A stretch of DNA of 64,000 nt from Balneolaceae bacterium (GTDB lineage Bacteria > Bacteroidota > Rhodothermia > Balneolales > Balneolaceae), in assembly GCA_017640665.1 (NCBI GenBank), contig JAEPQE010000004.1, forward strand, positions 62,001-126,000, in the 5' to 3' direction. Within the stretch, counting starts at the first letter, position 1. Each line of letters starts with the position of its first letter. Made by a program: the position numbers and the translations under genes. Positions 12,246-27,743 of the stretch are shown in pieces. The notes below the pieces were generated by a model. That model ran no database searches. It was not told where the DNA came from and saw only the letters and a list, made by a program, of their open reading frames with translations.

Positions 12246-12266
12246 TCTGAATGATCGGTTCGGATT

Positions 12267-12319
12267 AACGCTTATACAGGAGCGTTGGATGTTATAGAAA
12301 TGTTATTTCTATAGGTTTG
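12267..12319 (+). promoter_or_regulatory. Two adjacent inverted repeats with an overlapping -7-like box, upstream of the DsbD gene
   Basis: The first repeat is AACGCT/AGCGTT (12267-12272 and 12281-12286). The second is a perfect 9-bp repeat, TATAGAAAT-GTT-ATTTCTATA (12293-12313). TAGGTTTG (12312-12319), a perfect Bacteroidota -7 box, overlaps the end of the second repeat, although no TTG stands at the expected 19-base distance. The palindrome could be an operator or simply an mRNA hairpin after rplI. Confidence 0.35.
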
Positions 12320-12360
12320 ATGTTCCTGAATGTTGGTTTATCATTCATTCAAAAGTATTA

Positions 12361-14301
12361 ATGAAGAATCGATTCCAGATGAAATTATTTCAAAAGATTA
12401 CAGTGGGAATCATCGCAATGATGTTATTCCCACTTTTTGTTTACGGTCAGATCCCTGACCCAGTTAAATTCAATGTCACAGAAGCACCCGAACAGGTACT
12501 GGCAGGTGAGGTTTTTACCATTTCAGTAGAAGCTTCTATAGAAGGTGATTGGCATCTTTATTCTGTTCTGAATGATCCTGATGCGGGCCCTTTTCCTACA
12601 GAATTCTCTGCAAACTCTCCTAATTTTGTTTTTGCCGGAGATGTTACTGAGTCAGAAGCCGATATCGAATTCGATCCCAATTTTGAAGCTGAACTGGGAT
12701 GGCACAGTTCTTTTGCCAGTTTTGATATTCCGATTGCTATAAAAACGGAATTATCCGGGAGACAGAATCTGGATATCGAAGTGTTTTATCAAGTATGTGA
12801 TGACCGGGTTTGTCTTCCGCCAAAAACTAAATCTATTATTGTAGCTGTAGAAGTAGTAGGGGTTTCTGATAATCCGTATGAAGCAGCTATAGGTGGTATC
12901 GAAGAGGTTTCATCGGGAGAGGAAGTCTCCGGGTCGGGTTCTTCAGATTTATCTAAAGATGGAGTTTTCTCTTTCATCTGGATTGCACTACTTGCAGGAT
13001 TTGCTGCATTGCTGACTCCCTGCGTATTCCCAATGATTCCATTGACTGTTTCCTATTTCTCGAAACAGAGTGGAGAAAGCAAAGGAGTAGGCCAAGCACT
13101 CTTGTTCGGAATCGCTATAGTAATAACTTTTACTATTATTGGGGTGATTCTGGCAGCATTGGTAGGTGCAAATGGAGCTCAAAACTTTGCTGCAAGTCCA
13201 TTTGTTAATGCAATGATTGCTATCGTGTTGATTGCATTTGCACTTAGCTTACTAGGTATGTACGAGCTTCAACTTCCCCACCAGCTTACTAATTATCTAA
13301 ACAGAAAAAGTAATGAGAGCTCGGGCATAGTTGGGATAATTTTTATGGCTGTTACAATCAGTGCAGTCTCATTTTCATGTACAGCACCATTTGTTGGGGC
13401 AGTATTCGCCGCTACAGCCACAGGTGGAGAATGGATTTATCCAATTATAGGAATGATTGGGTTCTCGGCTGCATTTGCGAGTCCGTTTGTTTTGTTCGCT
13501 ATGTTTCCTCAATGGTTGGAATCTCTCCCAAAAAGTGGCTCATGGATGAATGTGGTGAAAGTGCTACTTGGGTTCATAGAATTAGCGGCTGCCATTAAAT
13601 TTATCTCAAATGTAGATTTAGTTCTTGGTTGGGGATTAGTGAGTCGACCGTTCGCTATTGCAGCCTGGATCGCAATTTTCTTAGTGGCCGGATTATACGT
13701 GCTGGGCATATTTGTTTTGAAACATGAAAAGAAGCCAGAGTATGTTACCACGGGTCGTTTATTACTTGCATTGCCATTTTTATTATTCAGCTTCTACTTA
13801 ATGCCTGGTTTGATGGGAGCTTCACTTGGGATCTGGGATTCCTGGTTGCCTCCTAAAATGCAAACCGATGTAAGTGTGGTTGGAACTATAGCTGCCATGG
13901 GTGGAGGCGGCTCAGGTTCTTCACTGACTGATGATGGCTGGACGGAAGATTATCAGACTGCATTGGATGAAGCGGAAGCAGAAGGTATTCCTGTCTTTAT
14001 CGACTTTACAGGCTATACCTGTACAAACTGTCGTGCAATGGAATCAAATGTATTCCCACTGGAAGAAGTTCGTGAACGTTTTGACCAAATGAAGCTTGTA
14101 AAACTCTACACCGATGGCGGTTCTGACGCTCAGGCTAACCAGCAATTACAATTCCGTCTTACAGGAAATATTGCACTCCCAACCTATGTAATTCTAGATC
14201 CAGGAAGTAAGCGAGTTATTGCTCAGGAGCTGGGGTACATTAACTCAGAAAAATTTGTTTCTTTTCTGGATAAAGGAATTAACGCTTACAAATCAAAATA
14301 G
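12361..14301 (+). CDS. dsbD: DsbD-type protein-disulfide reductase (thiol:disulfide interchange, CcdA-like membrane core)
   Basis: A 646-residue three-part protein that carries electrons from cytoplasmic thioredoxin across the membrane to periplasmic thiols. After a signal peptide (cleavage near VYGQ) comes a DsbD-alpha-like domain (about residues 30-165) with a cysteine pair in VCDDRVCLPPKT. A membrane core (about 200-470) holds the redox cysteines in LTPCVFPMIPLTV and SFSCTAPFVGAVF. A C-terminal thioredoxin domain has GYTCTNCRAM. All three cysteine pairs expected for a working DsbD are present. A second in-frame ATG at codon 7 could be the true start. It follows the ribosomal operon after a 115-base gap with inverted repeats, so it probably has its own promoter. 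Confidence 0.92.
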   Translation: MKNRFQMKLFQKITVGIIAMMLFPLFVYGQIPDPVKFNVTEAPEQVLAGEVFTISVEASIEGDWHLYSVLNDPDAGPFPTEFSANSPNFVFAGDVTESEADIEFDPNFEAELGWHSSFASFDIPIAIKTELSGRQNLDIEVFYQVCDDRVCLPPKTKSIIVAVEVVGVSDNPYEAAIGGIEEVSSGEEVSGSGSSDLSKDGVFSFIWIALLAGFAALLTPCVFPMIPLTVSYFSKQSGESKGVGQALLFGIAIVITFTIIGVILAALVGANGAQNFAASPFVNAMIAIVLIAFALSLLGMYELQLPHQLTNYLNRKSNESSGIVGIIFMAVTISAVSFSCTAPFVGAVFAATATGGEWIYPIIGMIGFSAAFASPFVLFAMFPQWLESLPKSGSWMNVVKVLLGFIELAAAIKFISNVDLVLGWGLVSRPFAIAAWIAIFLVAGLYVLGIFVLKHEKKPEYVTTGRLLLALPFLLFSFYLMPGLMGASLGIWDSWLPPKMQTDVSVVGTIAAMGGGGSGSSLTDDGWTEDYQTALDEAEAEGIPVFIDFTGYTCTNCRAMESNVFPLEEVRERFDQMKLVKLYTDGGSDAQANQQLQFRLTGNIALPTYVILDPGSKRVIAQELGYINSEKFVSFLDKGINAYKSK

Positions 14302-21373: not shown

Positions 21374-23467
21374 ATGGCCGATAAAAAGCCCACTCCAAAA
21401 AAGCAGATTAAATCTCCCTTGGGAAATGGAAAAGGAAATAATCCTAAATTTCCAACCTGGGGATTCCTGGTAATTATTTTAGCCCTCATCTTTGTTCAGA
21501 TTATGTTTCTGAACCCTGAAGCTGGTAATGACATCAAGTACAGTAAATTTCTGGGTGATGTAAAAAGTGGATACGTTGAGGAAATTATAATTAAAAACGG
21601 CGTAAACATCTATGGCAAGTATAATGATAAAGCCATTTCAGATGGAATTATTCAGCGACCGGTTCAGGATGACAATCCTCTGAATCTTTCATCAGGGAGC
21701 TCAGAAGAGTTCAGGGCATTTATTACAACTATGCTTCCTGGAGACGAAATCCGTCCTATTCTTGACGAGCATAATGTAGAATATGAAGTCCGTATAGAAG
21801 AAGAATGGTTTAGTGGTGTATTTATGTGGCTGATAATGATTGCGCTGGCCATCGGATTTTGGGTGTTCATTTTCAGAAGGATGAATCCCGGACAACAGGT
21901 TCTTAATATTGGTAAGAATAAAGCAGCACTTTACGACCAACAGACCGATACAAAAGTCACTTTCAAAGATGTAGCCGGACTCGAAGAAGCAAAAGAAGAA
22001 GTTAAAGAGATTGTAGATTTTCTTCAGAAGCCGGATAAATTCACCAATCTGGGAGGTAAGATTCCAAAAGGAGCACTTCTGGTGGGAGCGCCCGGTACGG
22101 GTAAAACACTTCTTGCTAAAGCTGTAGCCGGAGAAGCTGGGGTTCCATTCTTCTCACTCTCAGGTTCCGATTTTGTTGAAATGTTTGTTGGAGTTGGTGC
22201 AGCCCGTGTTCGTGACTTATTTAAAACAGCCAAAGAAAAAGCTCCGTGTATCGTATTTATTGATGAGATCGACGCTATCGGGCGTTCTCGTGGTAAAGGG
22301 CAAATGCCGGGTTCTAATGATGAGCGTGAGAATACGCTAAACTCGTTATTGGTTGAGATGGATGGATTTGCTACCGATTCAGGTGTAATCATTCTTGCAG
22401 CAACTAACCGTCCTGATGTTCTGGATAACGCCCTTTTACGTCCTGGTAGGTTTGATCGACAAATTAGTATTGATAAGCCTGATATTAATGGCAGGGAGCA
22501 GATTTTTAAAGTTCATCTGAAGCCACTTAAGCTCAACAAGGAAGTAGATCCTAAAAAACTCTCTGCACAAACTCCCGGATTTGCCGGAGCAGAAATTGCC
22601 AATGTGTGTAATGAAGCTGCTCTGATAGCCGCCAGAAACAATAAGAAGTCAGTAGACATGGAAGATTTCCAAAGTGCCATTGACCGTGTAATTGGTGGGC
22701 TTGAGAAGAAGAATAAGATTATCTCCCCGGAAGAAAAGAAAATTGTCGCTTATCATGAGGCAGGTCATGCAGTGGCAGGCTGGTTCCTTGAGCACGCCGA
22801 CCCGTTGGTTAAAGTTTCCATCGTACCAAGAGGACTTGCAGCACTTGGCTATGCACAGTATTTGCCAAAGGAACAGTTCCTGCATCAAACCGAGCAGCTG
22901 ATGGATCAGATGTGTATGACACTAGGAGGTCGTGCCGCAGAGGAAATCATCTTTGGAAAAATATCTACCGGCGCATTGAGTGATCTGGAACGCATCACCA
23001 AAATGGCTTACAGTATTGTTACGGTTTATGGTATGAATGATAAGATTGGGAATGTGTCTTTCTATGATTCCAAACAAAATGATTACACATTTAATAAGCC
23101 ATACTCTGATGCAACAGCCACCATCATTGATGAAGAGGTTAAAAAGATTATAGATGAAGCCTACCAGCGTACGCTTAAGCTTTTAAAAGAGAAAAAGAGT
23201 GAGTTGGAAACACTGGCTAAAGAACTTTTAGAGAAAGAAATCCTGTTCCAGTCTGATCTTGAAAAACTGATTGGAAAACGACCTTTTGATAAACAAACTA
23301 CCTACGAAGCCTTCACAAACGGAGAAAAAAAGAAGAAAAAGGAAACAACTGAGGAAGTAGAAAAAGAAGAAGAAGTTACCGAAGAAGTAAAACAAGATGA
23401 GACAGTAGATAATGAAGTTCAATCTGAAACCGGTAAGGAAGAAGCTGAGGAACCTGAAAAAAGCTAA
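21374..23467 (+). CDS. ftsH: ATP-dependent zinc metalloprotease FtsH
   Basis: A membrane-anchored hexameric AAA+ protease that degrades misfolded membrane proteins and selected regulators. The 697 residues include two membrane segments (about 28-46 and 143-166) flanking a periplasmic domain. The AAA domain has Walker A GAPGTGKT at 238-245, Walker [12 protein letters not shown], and the second region of homology [20 protein letters not shown]-type. The zinc site HEAGH is at 461-465, with the third ligand Asp near 537 (GALSDLERI). The C-terminus is a long Lys/Glu tail, longer than in E. coli FtsH. The gene stands alone, behind a near-consensus sigma-54 site. Confidence 0.96.
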
Positions 23468-23481
23468 ATAAGAGAGTCTGT

Positions 23482-23569
23482 TAACATTTATTTAATCTGT
23501 GGGTAACAGAAGCATAAAGCTCAGATAACAGAACAATAAACCAGGGATAACAGTAAAGCAAAAAGCGTG
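23482..23569 (+). promoter_or_regulatory. Array of 11-bp-phased TAA/TAACAG boxes upstream of the TonB receptor
   Basis: TAA triplets occur at 23482, 23493, 23504, 23515, 23526, 23537 and 23548, each exactly 11 bases from the last. Every other unit carries the fuller box TAACA(G/T) (23482, 23504, 23526, 23548), so the array also reads as four 22-bp direct repeats. Such phasing on one face of the helix is typical of OmpR/PhoB-family response regulator sites; TTAACA units at 11-bp spacing are the known Bacillus PhoP pattern. The regulator here is not identified. Confidence 0.55.
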
Positions 23570-23572
23570 TTG

Positions 23573-23580
23573 TAATTTTG
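23573..23580 (+). promoter_or_regulatory. -7 box of the TonB receptor promoter, lacking a -33 element
   Basis: TAATTTTG is a perfect TAnnTTTG box, 45 bases before the GTG start. No TTG stands 19-21 bases upstream; instead the last TAACAG box begins 25 bases before it. That geometry suits an activator-dependent promoter in which the bound regulator replaces the -33 contact. Confidence 0.5.
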
Positions 23581-23625
23581 TATCGCAATGAATAAACGCG
23601 AACAAAATAAATAATCAGCACACTC

Positions 23626-26322
23626 GTGATCAAATTCAAAAACGCACTTTTTCTATGTTCCGCGCTATTAATCTCATCTAATTTATTTGCGCAGGACGGT
23701 AGAATTGTTGGAACCATAGTTGATGCCGAAACCGGGGAAACCCTGATCGGTGTGAATGTAGTAATAGAAGGTACCATACAAGGTACAGCAACTGATATCG
23801 ATGGGAATTATACCATCCGAAGAGTCGCAGCAGGAACTTATGATCTGGTAATTACTTATCTCTCCTATGCCTCACAAACCATTACCGGTGTAGTGGTTGA
23901 TAAAGGGGAGACCGTACGCTTAGATGTAGCTTTGCAGCCGGAATCTGAATTTTTGGATGAGATTGTGGTTACAGCCGAAGCAGTCCAAAGCGGGGAAGCG
24001 GGATTACTGGCAGTTCAAAAGAAGTCTGTTCCTGTACAGGATGGAATCTCTTCTGAGGAAATATCGAAAACCGGAGACGGAAATGTAGGATCTGCAATGA
24101 AGCGTGTTTCCGGGGTTTCCGTAGTTGGAGGAAAGGATGTTTATGTACGCGGTCTAGGTAACCGATACAGTAATATTCAATTAAACGGGGCACCTGTCCC
24201 ATCAACTAATCCGAATAAAAAAGAAGCCCCAGTTGATATTCTTTCCAGTGGGATTGTAGATAATATTTTAGTTCAGAAAACCTTCACTCCCGATCAATTC
24301 GGAGAGTTTTCCGGTGGATCGGTTAAAATTATTACCAAGGAATTCCCTGATTCCAATAATCTTACAATTACGTACTCCACAGAAGTAAATTCGATTTCTA
24401 CATTTAATAATTATCTCGGGTATTCAGGCGGGGGTACAGACTATTTAGGTTTTGACGATGGTTACAGATCTCTTCCAGAAGATGTTAAAGACAGTGATAT
24501 CACATCAGATGCTGAAGCTGCTACTATTTTACGTGATTTGAATTCATCCTGGACTTCAAAAAATATTACTTCTCTTCCAAGCCAAAAGATAAGTGTTAGC
24601 TATAGCAATCAACTGAATGAAGACAAAATGCCAATTGGCGTGGTATCTAATTTTAGCTATAAATATGCTACTGAGGCCCAAGTAAATGAAACGCTACGAT
24701 ACATCAATAACTATAACGAAGGTACTAATACTACTTTATTAGGGTCAGATTATGTAAGGAATACCGGGACAGAATCAACAAGTTTAAGTACAATGGTGAA
24801 TGTGTTTGCGAAACCGTCGTCAGTTACAAAAATTGGGTTGAAGAATCTGTATTCAAACTCTTCAAGTAATAAGTTTTCTGAGATTGAAGGGAGTTATTAC
24901 AATTTTGGAAATGATAACAGGCAAACAGTTTTGGAATTCGATAGAAGAGCTATCTTTTCCACTTCTTTAAATTTTGAAACCTATTTCAGTAATTTTCTTT
25001 CATCTAAACTTGAAGCGAACCTAACCTATTCCAAAGCGGTAAGGGATTTACCTGATCGCAGAACTACTCAATATGTCAGGACAGATGAAAATGATCTCGA
25101 AGTGATCTTCCCGTTTCGGGGTAATACTCATTTCTTTTCTTTTCAGGATGACAATAACTATTCGGGAGGATTTGATTACGAGTTAAAACCTTTTGACAGA
25201 TTTGATGTTAAAGTAGGAGCATTCGGTTTATATAAAGACCGTTCCTTTGAATCGTTTAAGCTAGTGTATCAGGATTTAGGAAATAATTTTCCTGAAGAAG
25301 ATAAATCGCTTTCACCTGAAGAAATCTTCACTTCAGAAAACATCAGCGCTGGAAACCTTGATCTGATTGAGAGTTCAAGTTCAAGAGATTCTTACGACGG
25401 AGAGCAAGAATTAGCTGCAGGATATTTTTCATTTAACTGGTCGCCCTCAGAGAAATGGAATATTGTAACTGGTTTGCGTGCTGAAAACTCTGCTCAATAT
25501 ATTAATGAAGAAGCACTGATCGATGAGTTGGATATTCTTCCTGCCTTCAACCTCACTTTTCGACCATCAGAAGCTACAAACCTTAGGGCAGCTTTTTCAA
25601 TTACACTGGCAAGACCGGAATTCCGTGAGCTTTCTAATTTCAACTTCCAGGATTTTGTAGGTGGAAGAACCGTATATGGTAATCCCAATCTTGAAAGAAC
25701 GAGAATCTTCAATTATGATTTGAGATGGGAAACCTATCCGAATACGGGAGAACTATTCGCGGTAAGTGCTTTCTATAAGAAATTTGAAAATCCAATCGAG
25801 CTGTTTTATAGAATCACTCAAAACAATGAAGTTCGATATGATAATGTAGATGAAGCACAGCTTTATGGTATTGAATTAGAGGGTAGAAAGAGTATCACAG
25901 ATCAGTTAAAGCTAAACTCTAATCTTTCTTACATAATTTCAGAAGTAAACTATGCAGATGGTGCATCAGTAGGTCGCCAGGCAAATGCTGAGCGAGCAAT
26001 GTTTGGACAATCGCCCTACACTTTTAATGCAAATGCATTCTATGTATTTCCAAAGATGGATGCAGAAGCAACAATTTCGTTTAACACCTTTGGGAAGCGA
26101 ATTTCTGCGGTAGGAAATAATGAACAGCCCGATGACGAATTCGAGCAGCCCTTCAATAAGCTTGATGTTAGTTTTACCAAGAACTTAGGCAGAGCATCTG
26201 TATCAGCAAGCATAGAAAACATTTTAAACGACAATATCATCTACAAACAGGGTGATGTAATAACAAATCAATACGAGATCGGCACAACCTTTTCGGTGAG
26301 CTTCAATTTTTCATTTAACTAA
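23626..26322 (+). CDS. TonB-dependent outer-membrane receptor with carboxypeptidase-regulatory-like domain
   Basis: An 898-residue outer-membrane transporter, translated from GTG, with a signal peptide ending ISSNLFAQ. Residues ~25-110 form a CarboxypepD_reg-like domain (GRIVGTIVDAETGETLIGVN, then GTATDIDGNYTIRRVAAG). The plug domain follows, including DVYVRGLGNRYSNIQLNGAP and FGEFSGGSVKIITKEFP, then a ~650-residue barrel ending FSVSFNFSFN. It would take up a bound substrate using energy from TonB and ExbB/ExbD. It is not a SusC type, since no SusD partner follows; instead a beta-solenoid-like lipoprotein lies 25 bases downstream. Substrate is unknown. The upstream box array suggests two-component control. 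Confidence 0.93.
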   Translation: MIKFKNALFLCSALLISSNLFAQDGRIVGTIVDAETGETLIGVNVVIEGTIQGTATDIDGNYTIRRVAAGTYDLVITYLSYASQTITGVVVDKGETVRLDVALQPESEFLDEIVVTAEAVQSGEAGLLAVQKKSVPVQDGISSEEISKTGDGNVGSAMKRVSGVSVVGGKDVYVRGLGNRYSNIQLNGAPVPSTNPNKKEAPVDILSSGIVDNILVQKTFTPDQFGEFSGGSVKIITKEFPDSNNLTITYSTEVNSISTFNNYLGYSGGGTDYLGFDDGYRSLPEDVKDSDITSDAEAATILRDLNSSWTSKNITSLPSQKISVSYSNQLNEDKMPIGVVSNFSYKYATEAQVNETLRYINNYNEGTNTTLLGSDYVRNTGTESTSLSTMVNVFAKPSSVTKIGLKNLYSNSSSNKFSEIEGSYYNFGNDNRQTVLEFDRRAIFSTSLNFETYFSNFLSSKLEANLTYSKAVRDLPDRRTTQYVRTDENDLEVIFPFRGNTHFFSFQDDNNYSGGFDYELKPFDRFDVKVGAFGLYKDRSFESFKLVYQDLGNNFPEEDKSLSPEEIFTSENISAGNLDLIESSSSRDSYDGEQELAAGYFSFNWSPSEKWNIVTGLRAENSAQYINEEALIDELDILPAFNLTFRPSEATNLRAAFSITLARPEFRELSNFNFQDFVGGRTVYGNPNLERTRIFNYDLRWETYPNTGELFAVSAFYKKFENPIELFYRITQNNEVRYDNVDEAQLYGIELEGRKSITDQLKLNSNLSYIISEVNYADGASVGRQANAERAMFGQSPYTFNANAFYVFPKMDAEATISFNTFGKRISAVGNNEQPDDEFEQPFNKLDVSFTKNLGRASVSASIENILNDNIIYKQGDVITNQYEIGTTFSVSFNFSFN

Positions 26323-26347: not shown

Positions 26348-27643
26348 ATGAAATTTAATCTCAAATTACTTTCACTATACACGCTTGCGCTCACCGTCGT
26401 TTTTACTTCATGCGATAACAGTACAGGTGGTGACAGTGATGGTGATATTCCCGAAATATATGCATCTCTGCCAGGTACTCTTATAGATGAAGATACAAAC
26501 TGGGATACCGATCAAACGCTAACGGGTCAGTATTATGTACTCCCGGGAGTTACTCTTACAATTGATGCCGGAGTAACCGTTAGTTTCACTTATCACAACA
26601 ACAACATTGATGATGTTGGGGCAATTATCACACTTCCTGCAGATCCTGAGAATTTTGATACACCTCGTGCAAGTGGAAGATTGGTCGCGGAAGGTACTGC
26701 GAGCAATCCGATTGTATTTACTTCCGGAAGAGACACAAAACAACCAGGGGACTGGGGTGGAATTGTACTTGCAGGAGAAGGGGTAAATAACATTGAGGGT
26801 GGAAAAGGAGAGGTTGAGGGTCTACCCGATGCCATCCAGTATGGAGGCACAAATAATGCTGATGACAGTGGTATACTTAAATACGTTCGAATCGAATACG
26901 TTGGGTTTTCATTCGTAGAAGGCTCTGAGCTTAATGGACTGAGCATGTATTCTGTTGGTAGCGGAACAACTCTTGAATATATCCAGGTATACAAATGTAC
27001 TGATGATGGATTCGAATGGTTTGGCGGAGCAGTAAATGCTAAGTATCTGATTTCAGCATTCAACGACGATGATTCTTTTGATATGGATGAAGGCTGGAAC
27101 GGAAAAGGGCAGTATTGGTTGGCAGTTCAAACTGCCGGGGCTGACAATGGTTTTGAATCAGACGGTAGAAAAACGTTGGGATCCGGAAATGCGACTTCTC
27201 CAACTCTTTACAATGTAACTTTGGTTGGATTGAAGCAGGATGGATCGACAAAAGATGAAGAAGATAAAAATTACGGAATGCGCCTTAGAGAGGAATTTGA
27301 AGGTGAGCTTGAAAACTTCATCATTTCTGATTTTGACGATTTGAGTTTCAAAATTGAAGACGACACTCGTAGCAATTTTTCACAGAGCCTGACTATCAAT
27401 AATACCATTGTCTGGAACAACGGTGGTTTCGCTAATGCAACCGACTCTACCGATTTCGGAGCGGTTACCTTAGATCAGGATCCGGGATACACTGATGCAG
27501 CTACATACGATTTTCGTCCTACTTCAACGGTTCTAGGTTCGACTCCTCCAAACGATGGATTCTTTAATACTTCTGCAAATTTTGTAGGTGCTTTTGGAAC
27601 AACAAACTGGGCAACTGGCGCCTGGGTTCGTTGGAACGACTAA
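26348..27643 (+). CDS. Surface or periplasmic lipoprotein with beta-solenoid-like repeats, partner of the TonB receptor
   Basis: A 431-residue lipoprotein: the signal peptide ends in the lipobox TSC with Cys22, followed by a Gly/Asp/Ser linker. The body recalls a right-handed parallel beta-helix: GQYYVLPGVTLTIDAGVTVS, then GDWGGIVLAGEG, then GILKYVRIEYVGFSF, then TTLEYIQVYKCTDDGFEWFG. I recall related Bacteroidota proteins, often misnamed 'multidrug transporter', that sit beside TonB-dependent receptors. Nothing in the sequence suggests transport by itself. The 25-base gap to the receptor implies one operon, so it may capture substrate at the surface. Many acidic loops could bind calcium. It ends at a terminator. 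Confidence 0.75.
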   Translation: MKFNLKLLSLYTLALTVVFTSCDNSTGGDSDGDIPEIYASLPGTLIDEDTNWDTDQTLTGQYYVLPGVTLTIDAGVTVSFTYHNNNIDDVGAIITLPADPENFDTPRASGRLVAEGTASNPIVFTSGRDTKQPGDWGGIVLAGEGVNNIEGGKGEVEGLPDAIQYGGTNNADDSGILKYVRIEYVGFSFVEGSELNGLSMYSVGSGTTLEYIQVYKCTDDGFEWFGGAVNAKYLISAFNDDDSFDMDEGWNGKGQYWLAVQTAGADNGFESDGRKTLGSGNATSPTLYNVTLVGLKQDGSTKDEEDKNYGMRLREEFEGELENFIISDFDDLSFKIEDDTRSNFSQSLTINNTIVWNNGGFANATDSTDFGAVTLDQDPGYTDAATYDFRPTSTVLGSTPPNDGFFNTSANFVGAFGTTNWATGAWVRWND

Positions 27644-27711
27644 GAAATATCGAAATATAAATTCCCACAAAGAAACGTCTCACTTCATTGTGAGGTGTGC
27701 TGATCACAAGG

Positions 27712-27743
27712 GGGGCTCCATGGATTTGGAGCTCCTCTTTTTT
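27712..27743 (+). terminator. Rho-independent terminator after the receptor-lipoprotein operon
   Basis: GGGCTCCA (27713-27720) pairs with TGGAGCTC (27727-27734) with one G-T wobble around a six-base loop, followed after CTC by six T bases. A weaker CTCAC/GTGAG hairpin lies just upstream. Between here and 27850 I see nothing else. Confidence 0.75.

Follow-up and report, generated by a model that had tools for sequence, protein, structure and literature searches.

The intergenic region between ftsH and a two-gene operon encoding a TonB-dependent receptor and a lipoprotein very probably harbors a Pho-type operator and promoter, as deduced from the sequences of this locus and its orthologues. Within the window, i.e., the 64,000-nucleotide stretch of Balneolaceae DNA analyzed here, this region carries an array of seven half-sites in 11-bp phase followed by a -7 box. 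An earlier note had interpreted this layout as a binding site of an OmpR/PhoB-type response regulator with possible phosphate control of the receptor. This interpretation appears well supported because the array is conserved and the same arrays precede phosphate genes in relatives, the conserved spacing of 25 bp to the -7 box being consistent with it. A more comprehensive model, in which the Pho operator is combined with two features not mentioned in the note, a fold-back hairpin in the leader and a feedback RNA derived from the 3' end of the operon, is regarded as moderately probable.

The genome containing the window (G000; 3.80 Mb, 98.8% complete) was compared with relatives within the family, including Balneola and Fodinibius. 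Relevant features of the locus are as follows:

21374–23467, + strand: ftsH (Pfam Peptidase_M41/AAA/FtsH_ext), co-directional and upstream of the array
23481–23558, + strand: seven half-sites (T)TAA in exact 11-bp phase, alternate ones reading TAACA(G/T); Pho-box-like array
23559–23563, + strand: degenerate eighth half-site CAAAA, 14 bp before the -7 box; orthologous leaders keep (G)CAA(A/C)
23564–23624, + strand: predicted fold-back hairpin (arms 23564–23586 and 23598–23624) holding the -7 box, its 3' arm abutting the start codon
23573–23580, + strand: -7 box TAATTTTG, 25 bp from the last TAACA
23614–23623, + strand: leader element ATCAGCACAC just before the start codon, complementary to the core of the 3'UTR RNA
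23626–26322, + strand: TonB-dependent receptor with a CarboxypepD_reg-like domain, GTG start at 23626
26348–27643, + strand: lipoprotein whose family is common next to TonB receptors among Bacteroidota
27671–27743, + strand: 3'UTR RNA element consisting of a hairpin, the invariant core GTGTGCTGATCA and an intrinsic terminator (match to model R1, 76.7 bits)
27695–27704, + strand: core GTGTGCTGAT, exact complement of 23614–23623

The half-site array in the window and in related genomes

The TAA trinucleotides noticed earlier at positions 23482, 23493, 23504, 23515, 23526, 23537 and 23548 were confirmed to follow each other in steps of exactly 11 bp, and the alternate units reported as TAACA(G/T) read TAACAT, TAACAG, TAACAG and TAACAG in this order. 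Likewise, the -7 box assigned to position 23573 was recovered (TAATTTTG, 23573–23580), and the reported lack of a -33 element held true, since TTG is absent 17–23 bp upstream of this box. Scanning of both strands identified this array as the only 11-bp TAA run of at least five units in the window. Dinucleotide-preserving shuffling of the region (20,000 rounds) gave runs of no more than four units (reached five times) compared with the seven observed, and the exact 22-bp triple TAACA occurs at a single site in the 3.80-Mb genome. The promoter element TAnnTTTG, which is also used in Bacteroides and Flavobacterium (PMC7366714), was counted 11 times in sense and four times in antisense orientation in the intergenic upstream DNA of the window and never in the reversed sequence. 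Based on these counts, it is considered a real and used promoter element here.

Orthologous receptors were gathered across the Balneolaceae, and 33 of their upstream regions were included in the array count. The earlier note had named a lack of 11-bp phasing in orthologous upstream regions as evidence against its proposal; instead, 30 of the 33 retained a TAA run of at least four units at this period, as compared with 2 of 3,300 shuffles. The longest run comprised five units in 25 regions, seven in two, four in three and three in the remaining three. Distances between TAA trinucleotides peaked at 11 (133 occurrences), 22 (102), 33 (71) and 44 bp (51), the background being about 8. The bases between the half-sites vary freely among species, and the array is kept though receptor identity falls to 35–40%. 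Furthermore, ftsH precedes the receptor gene in the same orientation in almost every orthologous locus, and in most of these loci the last strong TAACA lies 25 bp before TAnnTTTG, a less pronounced half-site, (G)CAA(A/C), being located at 14 bp. Pho boxes are characterized by two or more repeats that follow each other head to tail every 11 bp, by a fixed place before the core promoter instead of a -35/-33 element and by their occurrence before phosphate-starvation genes. Seven such repeats are present in the window and further ones in the orthologues, their distance to the core promoter of 25 bp (14 bp from the degenerate site) is kept in orthologues and in most Pho promoters of relatives, and in relatives the motif precedes phosphate-starvation genes.

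A search for TAACA arrays before phosphate genes, as suggested in the earlier note, was positive in the relatives, where pstS, PstS-like, oprP, Na/Pi cotransporter and BtaA-like genes were retrieved. Boxes of the TTAACA-N5-TTAACA type were found before all four strong pstS genes (TIGR02136) of relatives, one unit of one of these boxes reading TTAATA; the box was absent before a weak fifth PstS match (L053). Scanning for triple boxes yielded 31 sites compared with 13 in the reversed control. These boxes precede a Na/Pi cotransporter gene (two species), a PstS-like gene and a BtaA-like gene, and furthermore the TonB receptor itself in several genera as well as a gene for a small conserved protein, while most other PF02690 paralogues of the relatives have no box. 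The gene for an oprP-like porin is also preceded by such a box. In most Pho promoters of relatives, TAnnTT follows the half-site at a distance of 25–26 bp.

Arrays were also located near relatives of the lipoprotein gene in Melioribacteraceae, Aquimarina, Sphingobacterium and Flavobacterium, and before a pstS gene in Tannerella. In total, 22 arrays were detected in 20 loci (five Balneolaceae), all in sense orientation, compared with one in the reversed control. Members of the lipoprotein family were found in Flavobacterium species, with TTAACA arrays in front of the respective genes (L255, L259), and the family may be homologous to Fjoh_0546 of F. johnsoniae or its relatives. For the lipoprotein encoded at 26348–27643, no Pfam match was obtained, and its AlphaFold model (mean pLDDT of 50) was set aside.

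As a separate observation, a Pho-type box is located before the BtaA-like gene of locus L062 (site at 1501–1527), the gene being named from its sequence alone, without a family search. This suggests that the synthesis of phosphorus-free betaine lipids is under phosphate control in Balneolaceae.

The RNA element at the 3' end of the operon

The element at 27671–27743 follows all orthologous operons for which the 3' end is sequenced (two contigs end before this point), and its terminal position in the operon is kept even when the last gene is a different one. Searches against Rfam returned sub-threshold chance matches only; hence, it is not a listed family. An 18-nt block, TGTGAGGTGTGCTGATCA, is invariant in all 31 aligned elements, and the terminator stem covaries, with double changes in 10 of its 21 pairs and 59 double-change cells compared with 19.7 in shuffles. 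The location at the 3' end of an operon, an intrinsic terminator (31 aligned elements) and a core complementary to leaders are features by which small RNAs derived from 3'UTRs are recognized, and the element has the appearance of an autoregulatory RNA of this type.

In the Balneolaceae DNA examined, the leader element CAGCACA occurs within 45 nt before the start of four genes only, namely the receptor gene, two pstS genes and oprP. The extended motif WTCAGCACAC was found at 30 sites in three genomes, compared with seven in the control. Outside genes it is confined in these genomes to Pho leaders or, in inverted form, to the 3'UTR of the receptor operon; one apparent exception falls inside a short coding frame. 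Pairing between core and leader was predicted within the same genome in all 29 cases (-13.5 to -25.8 kcal/mol), often over the start codon. Covariation support for this pairing is missing because the core is invariant. Judged from these sequence matches, a functional pairing of the 3' RNA with the leader appears probable. According to the proposed mechanism, the RNA (27671–27743) would pair via GUGUGCUGAU with AUCAGCACAC at the start codon of the receptor gene, and in relatives also with the pstS and oprP leaders. Pairing would most likely repress translation and in this way provide negative feedback; for the sign of the effect, repression is assumed with slightly better than even confidence. 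In the pstS and oprP leaders, the start codon follows the pairing site only after tens of bases; simple blocking of the start codon therefore fits the receptor only.

The element is rather likely to represent a separate trans-acting RNA, which would presumably exist as a separately made species. Alternatively, it could be a mere terminator or mRNA-stability structure, or pair in cis with its own leader, no separate small RNA being involved. Its location at the operon end and the included intrinsic terminator agree with such a role, but the core is more conserved than the terminator stem and complements the pstS and oprP leaders in G012, where no second exact copy is present outside genes; this alternative is regarded as unlikely. 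As a trans-acting RNA, the element would resemble OppZ and CarZ of Vibrio cholerae (PMC7398697), which likewise are operon-end RNAs complementary to their own leader, with feedback being proposed in the present case. In contrast to OppZ and CarZ, the putative RNA described here is unrelated in sequence, belongs to a Bacteroidota host and matches other Pho leaders as well. With its strong conservation and its defined core and targets, it is a candidate small RNA in a group for which few regulatory RNAs have been characterized.

Two copies of the 3' element are present in a single species (locus L155, 1064–1135 and 5449–5521), one of them upstream of the receptor gene behind a different gene.

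The leader hairpin around the -7 box

The region between the last half-site and the start codon was folded as RNA for 34 orthologues and compared with 42 control leaders of the window. The mean z-score was -3.73 for the orthologues and -0.28 for the controls. In an alignment-free arm-swap test, own arms paired with -19.9 kcal/mol on average compared with -13.5 kcal/mol for swapped arms, and none of 20,000 permutations matched the value of the own arms. RNAalifold applied to a plain MAFFT alignment of the leaders gave no structure because the stem registers shift in diverged leaders; its place was taken by the arm-swap test together with counts tallied by 5' position. Of 28 arm positions, 24 retain pairs in which both partners vary among species, and 86% of the -7-box bases are paired with the 3' arm. 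Three pstS leaders have no such hairpin (z-scores of +0.7 to +0.9), the hairpin is weak or absent outside Balneolaceae, and comparison with Rfam resulted in sub-threshold chance matches only. An interpretation of the inverted repeat as DNA operator of a dimeric repressor was rejected, since both arms change together between species: pairing is kept while the sequence changes, and an operator would keep its sequence. Moreover, a role as ftsH terminator was dismissed, as it lacks a subsequent T-run and keeps a constant distance from the receptor start and not from ftsH.

In read-through RNA, a fraction of 0.36 of the start region is predicted to be unpaired, versus 0.67 in RNA initiated at the promoter. 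The start region is computed to be less open in read-through RNA in 33 of the 34 orthologues, and its openness changes stepwise when the 5' end is moved. Based on these folding predictions, silencing of read-through RNA by fold-back is the simplest reading of the hairpin and is held with somewhat more confidence than doubt. In this mechanism, RNA polymerase would start just after TAATTTTG, at approximately position 23584, and one transcript would comprise the receptor gene, the lipoprotein gene and the 3'UTR RNA. In RNA reading through from ftsH, its possible source, the arm containing the -7 box would fold onto the leader and hide the start codon, while RNA initiated at the Pho promoter would be devoid of the 5' arm and therefore be translated.

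Fold-back inhibition is known for the early RNA of the T4 lysozyme gene e and for the IS10 transposase, where the promoter is located in a hairpin arm and only read-through RNA hides the start. In contrast to these cases, a chromosomal nutrient receptor behind ftsH is concerned here, and the -7 box of an activated promoter lies within the arm. It is unusual that, as in this locus, a promoter element itself forms one arm of a hairpin predicted to block translation.

It is also conceivable, albeit quite improbable, that the promoter is Pho-controlled with transcription starting upstream of the hairpin, so that the leader would act as a riboswitch- or thermometer-like switch in its own transcript. 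The strong conservation of the hairpin with compensating changes across orthologues would suit such a switch. However, TAnnTTTG is conserved 25 bp past the last half-site and shared with the hairpin-less pstS promoters, the -7 box itself resides inside the 5' arm, and no Rfam family was matched. Returning to the fold-back reading, the start-site hairpin together with a 3' RNA matching the start site indicates that the operon is probably self-regulated at the RNA level too. A Balneolaceae-wide circuit, in which a PhoB promoter placed in a start-hiding hairpin and a small RNA representing a novel family would establish negative feedback within the Pho regulon, is proposed tentatively, its probability being estimated at a little less than even.

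In two loci of genus g5 (L014, L170), the leader hairpin relies on other bases and apparently includes the GTG start codon itself in a pairing (CACGTG), which would be an alternative way of hiding the start. Independently of the receptor locus, a strong predicted hairpin (z-score of -6.5) containing TAGGTTTG was noticed at window positions 12250–12375, just upstream of a dsbD-like gene at 12361.

Candidate regulator and relation to known Pho systems

Under phosphate starvation, a PhoB-type response regulator of the OmpR family is proposed to bind head to tail to the 11-bp TTAACA-like half-sites, where the promoter-proximal subunits would stand in for the missing -33 contact. The phosphate signal, the regulator and the start site of the promoter are in this respect presumptive. 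The best PhoB-like response regulator of the window genome (G000:C1:965233-965895) reached 234 bits compared with the TIGR02154 cut-off of 296, is 80–83% identical across genera and adjoins a histidine-kinase-like gene; we infer that it may be the regulator acting on the array. In the same genome, no match to PstS (TIGR02136), PhoU (TIGR02135), the Na/Pi cotransporter (PF02690) or PiT (PF01384) was obtained, while the search controls were positive. Support from a regulon in the own genome is absent because these usual phosphate importers are missing. Strict double boxes elsewhere in G000 were near the control level (13 compared with 8), and the other triple and double TAACA matches, apart from this site and C1:190774-190844, were discarded as background-like.

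The Bacillus PhoP box reads TTAACA. Known Pho boxes consist of 11-nt direct repeats, the cyanobacterial SphR unit being CTTAACCT with a 3-bp linker (PMC4415409, PMC1906773). As in the PhoB/PhoP operators of E. coli, cyanobacteria and Bacillus, the repeats of the present array are arranged head to tail at 11 bp and replace the -35/-33 element, and the TTAAC core is that of cyanobacterial Pho boxes (PMC1906773, PMC4415409). In contrast to these, the present array is longer, with up to seven phased units, and is combined with the Bacteroidota -7 box instead of a sigma-70 -10 element. No description of a Pho box for Bacteroidota was found in the open-access literature searched, which reports phosphate-responsive genes and no operator. 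For promoters of the Bacteroidota type, the array provides a concrete, testable consensus of the Pho box together with a promoter geometry.

In Flavobacterium johnsoniae, a TonB receptor and a beta-helix lipoprotein encoded in the phoBR cluster are among the loci most strongly induced by phosphate depletion (PMC8115612). In the FI/FII/FIII lipoprotein loci of this species, the gene for a beta-helix-type lipoprotein comes after that for a TonB receptor (PMC8115612). This gene order corresponds to that of the Balneolaceae pair, which is located behind ftsH whereas the F. johnsoniae pair resides in the phoBR cluster. No promoter or Pho-box description was found in the text of that publication. 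These data bear on the possibility that the array is bound by another OmpR-family regulator recognizing a TAACA-like half-site and not by a phosphate regulator. The genome encodes many response regulators with PhoB-like domains, and arrays also occur before genes without a known phosphate role, encoding small secreted and small helix-turn-helix-like proteins. However, the identifiable genes behind the relatives' arrays are mostly phosphate-related, and the similar receptor/lipoprotein pairs of Flavobacterium are phosphate-induced (PMC8115612), which renders a different regulator rather improbable. An origin of the array from chance or an old tandem duplication, for which a resemblance of the units to a diverged 22-bp repeat could be quoted, is hardly credible, since Tandem Repeats Finder reported no array and the phasing persists though the intervening bases differ between species, the comparison of orthologues already contradicting it.

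Triple TAACA boxes were also observed in four genomes before the gene for one and the same small helix-turn-helix-like protein of approximately 90–100 amino acids (L063, L066, L073 and L077; site at 1501–1527). Furthermore, a second phased TAACA array of the window genome (G000:C1:190774-190844; L116:4774-4845) precedes a gene for a small secreted protein, and the same gene, together with its boxes, recurs in G011, G023 and G026.
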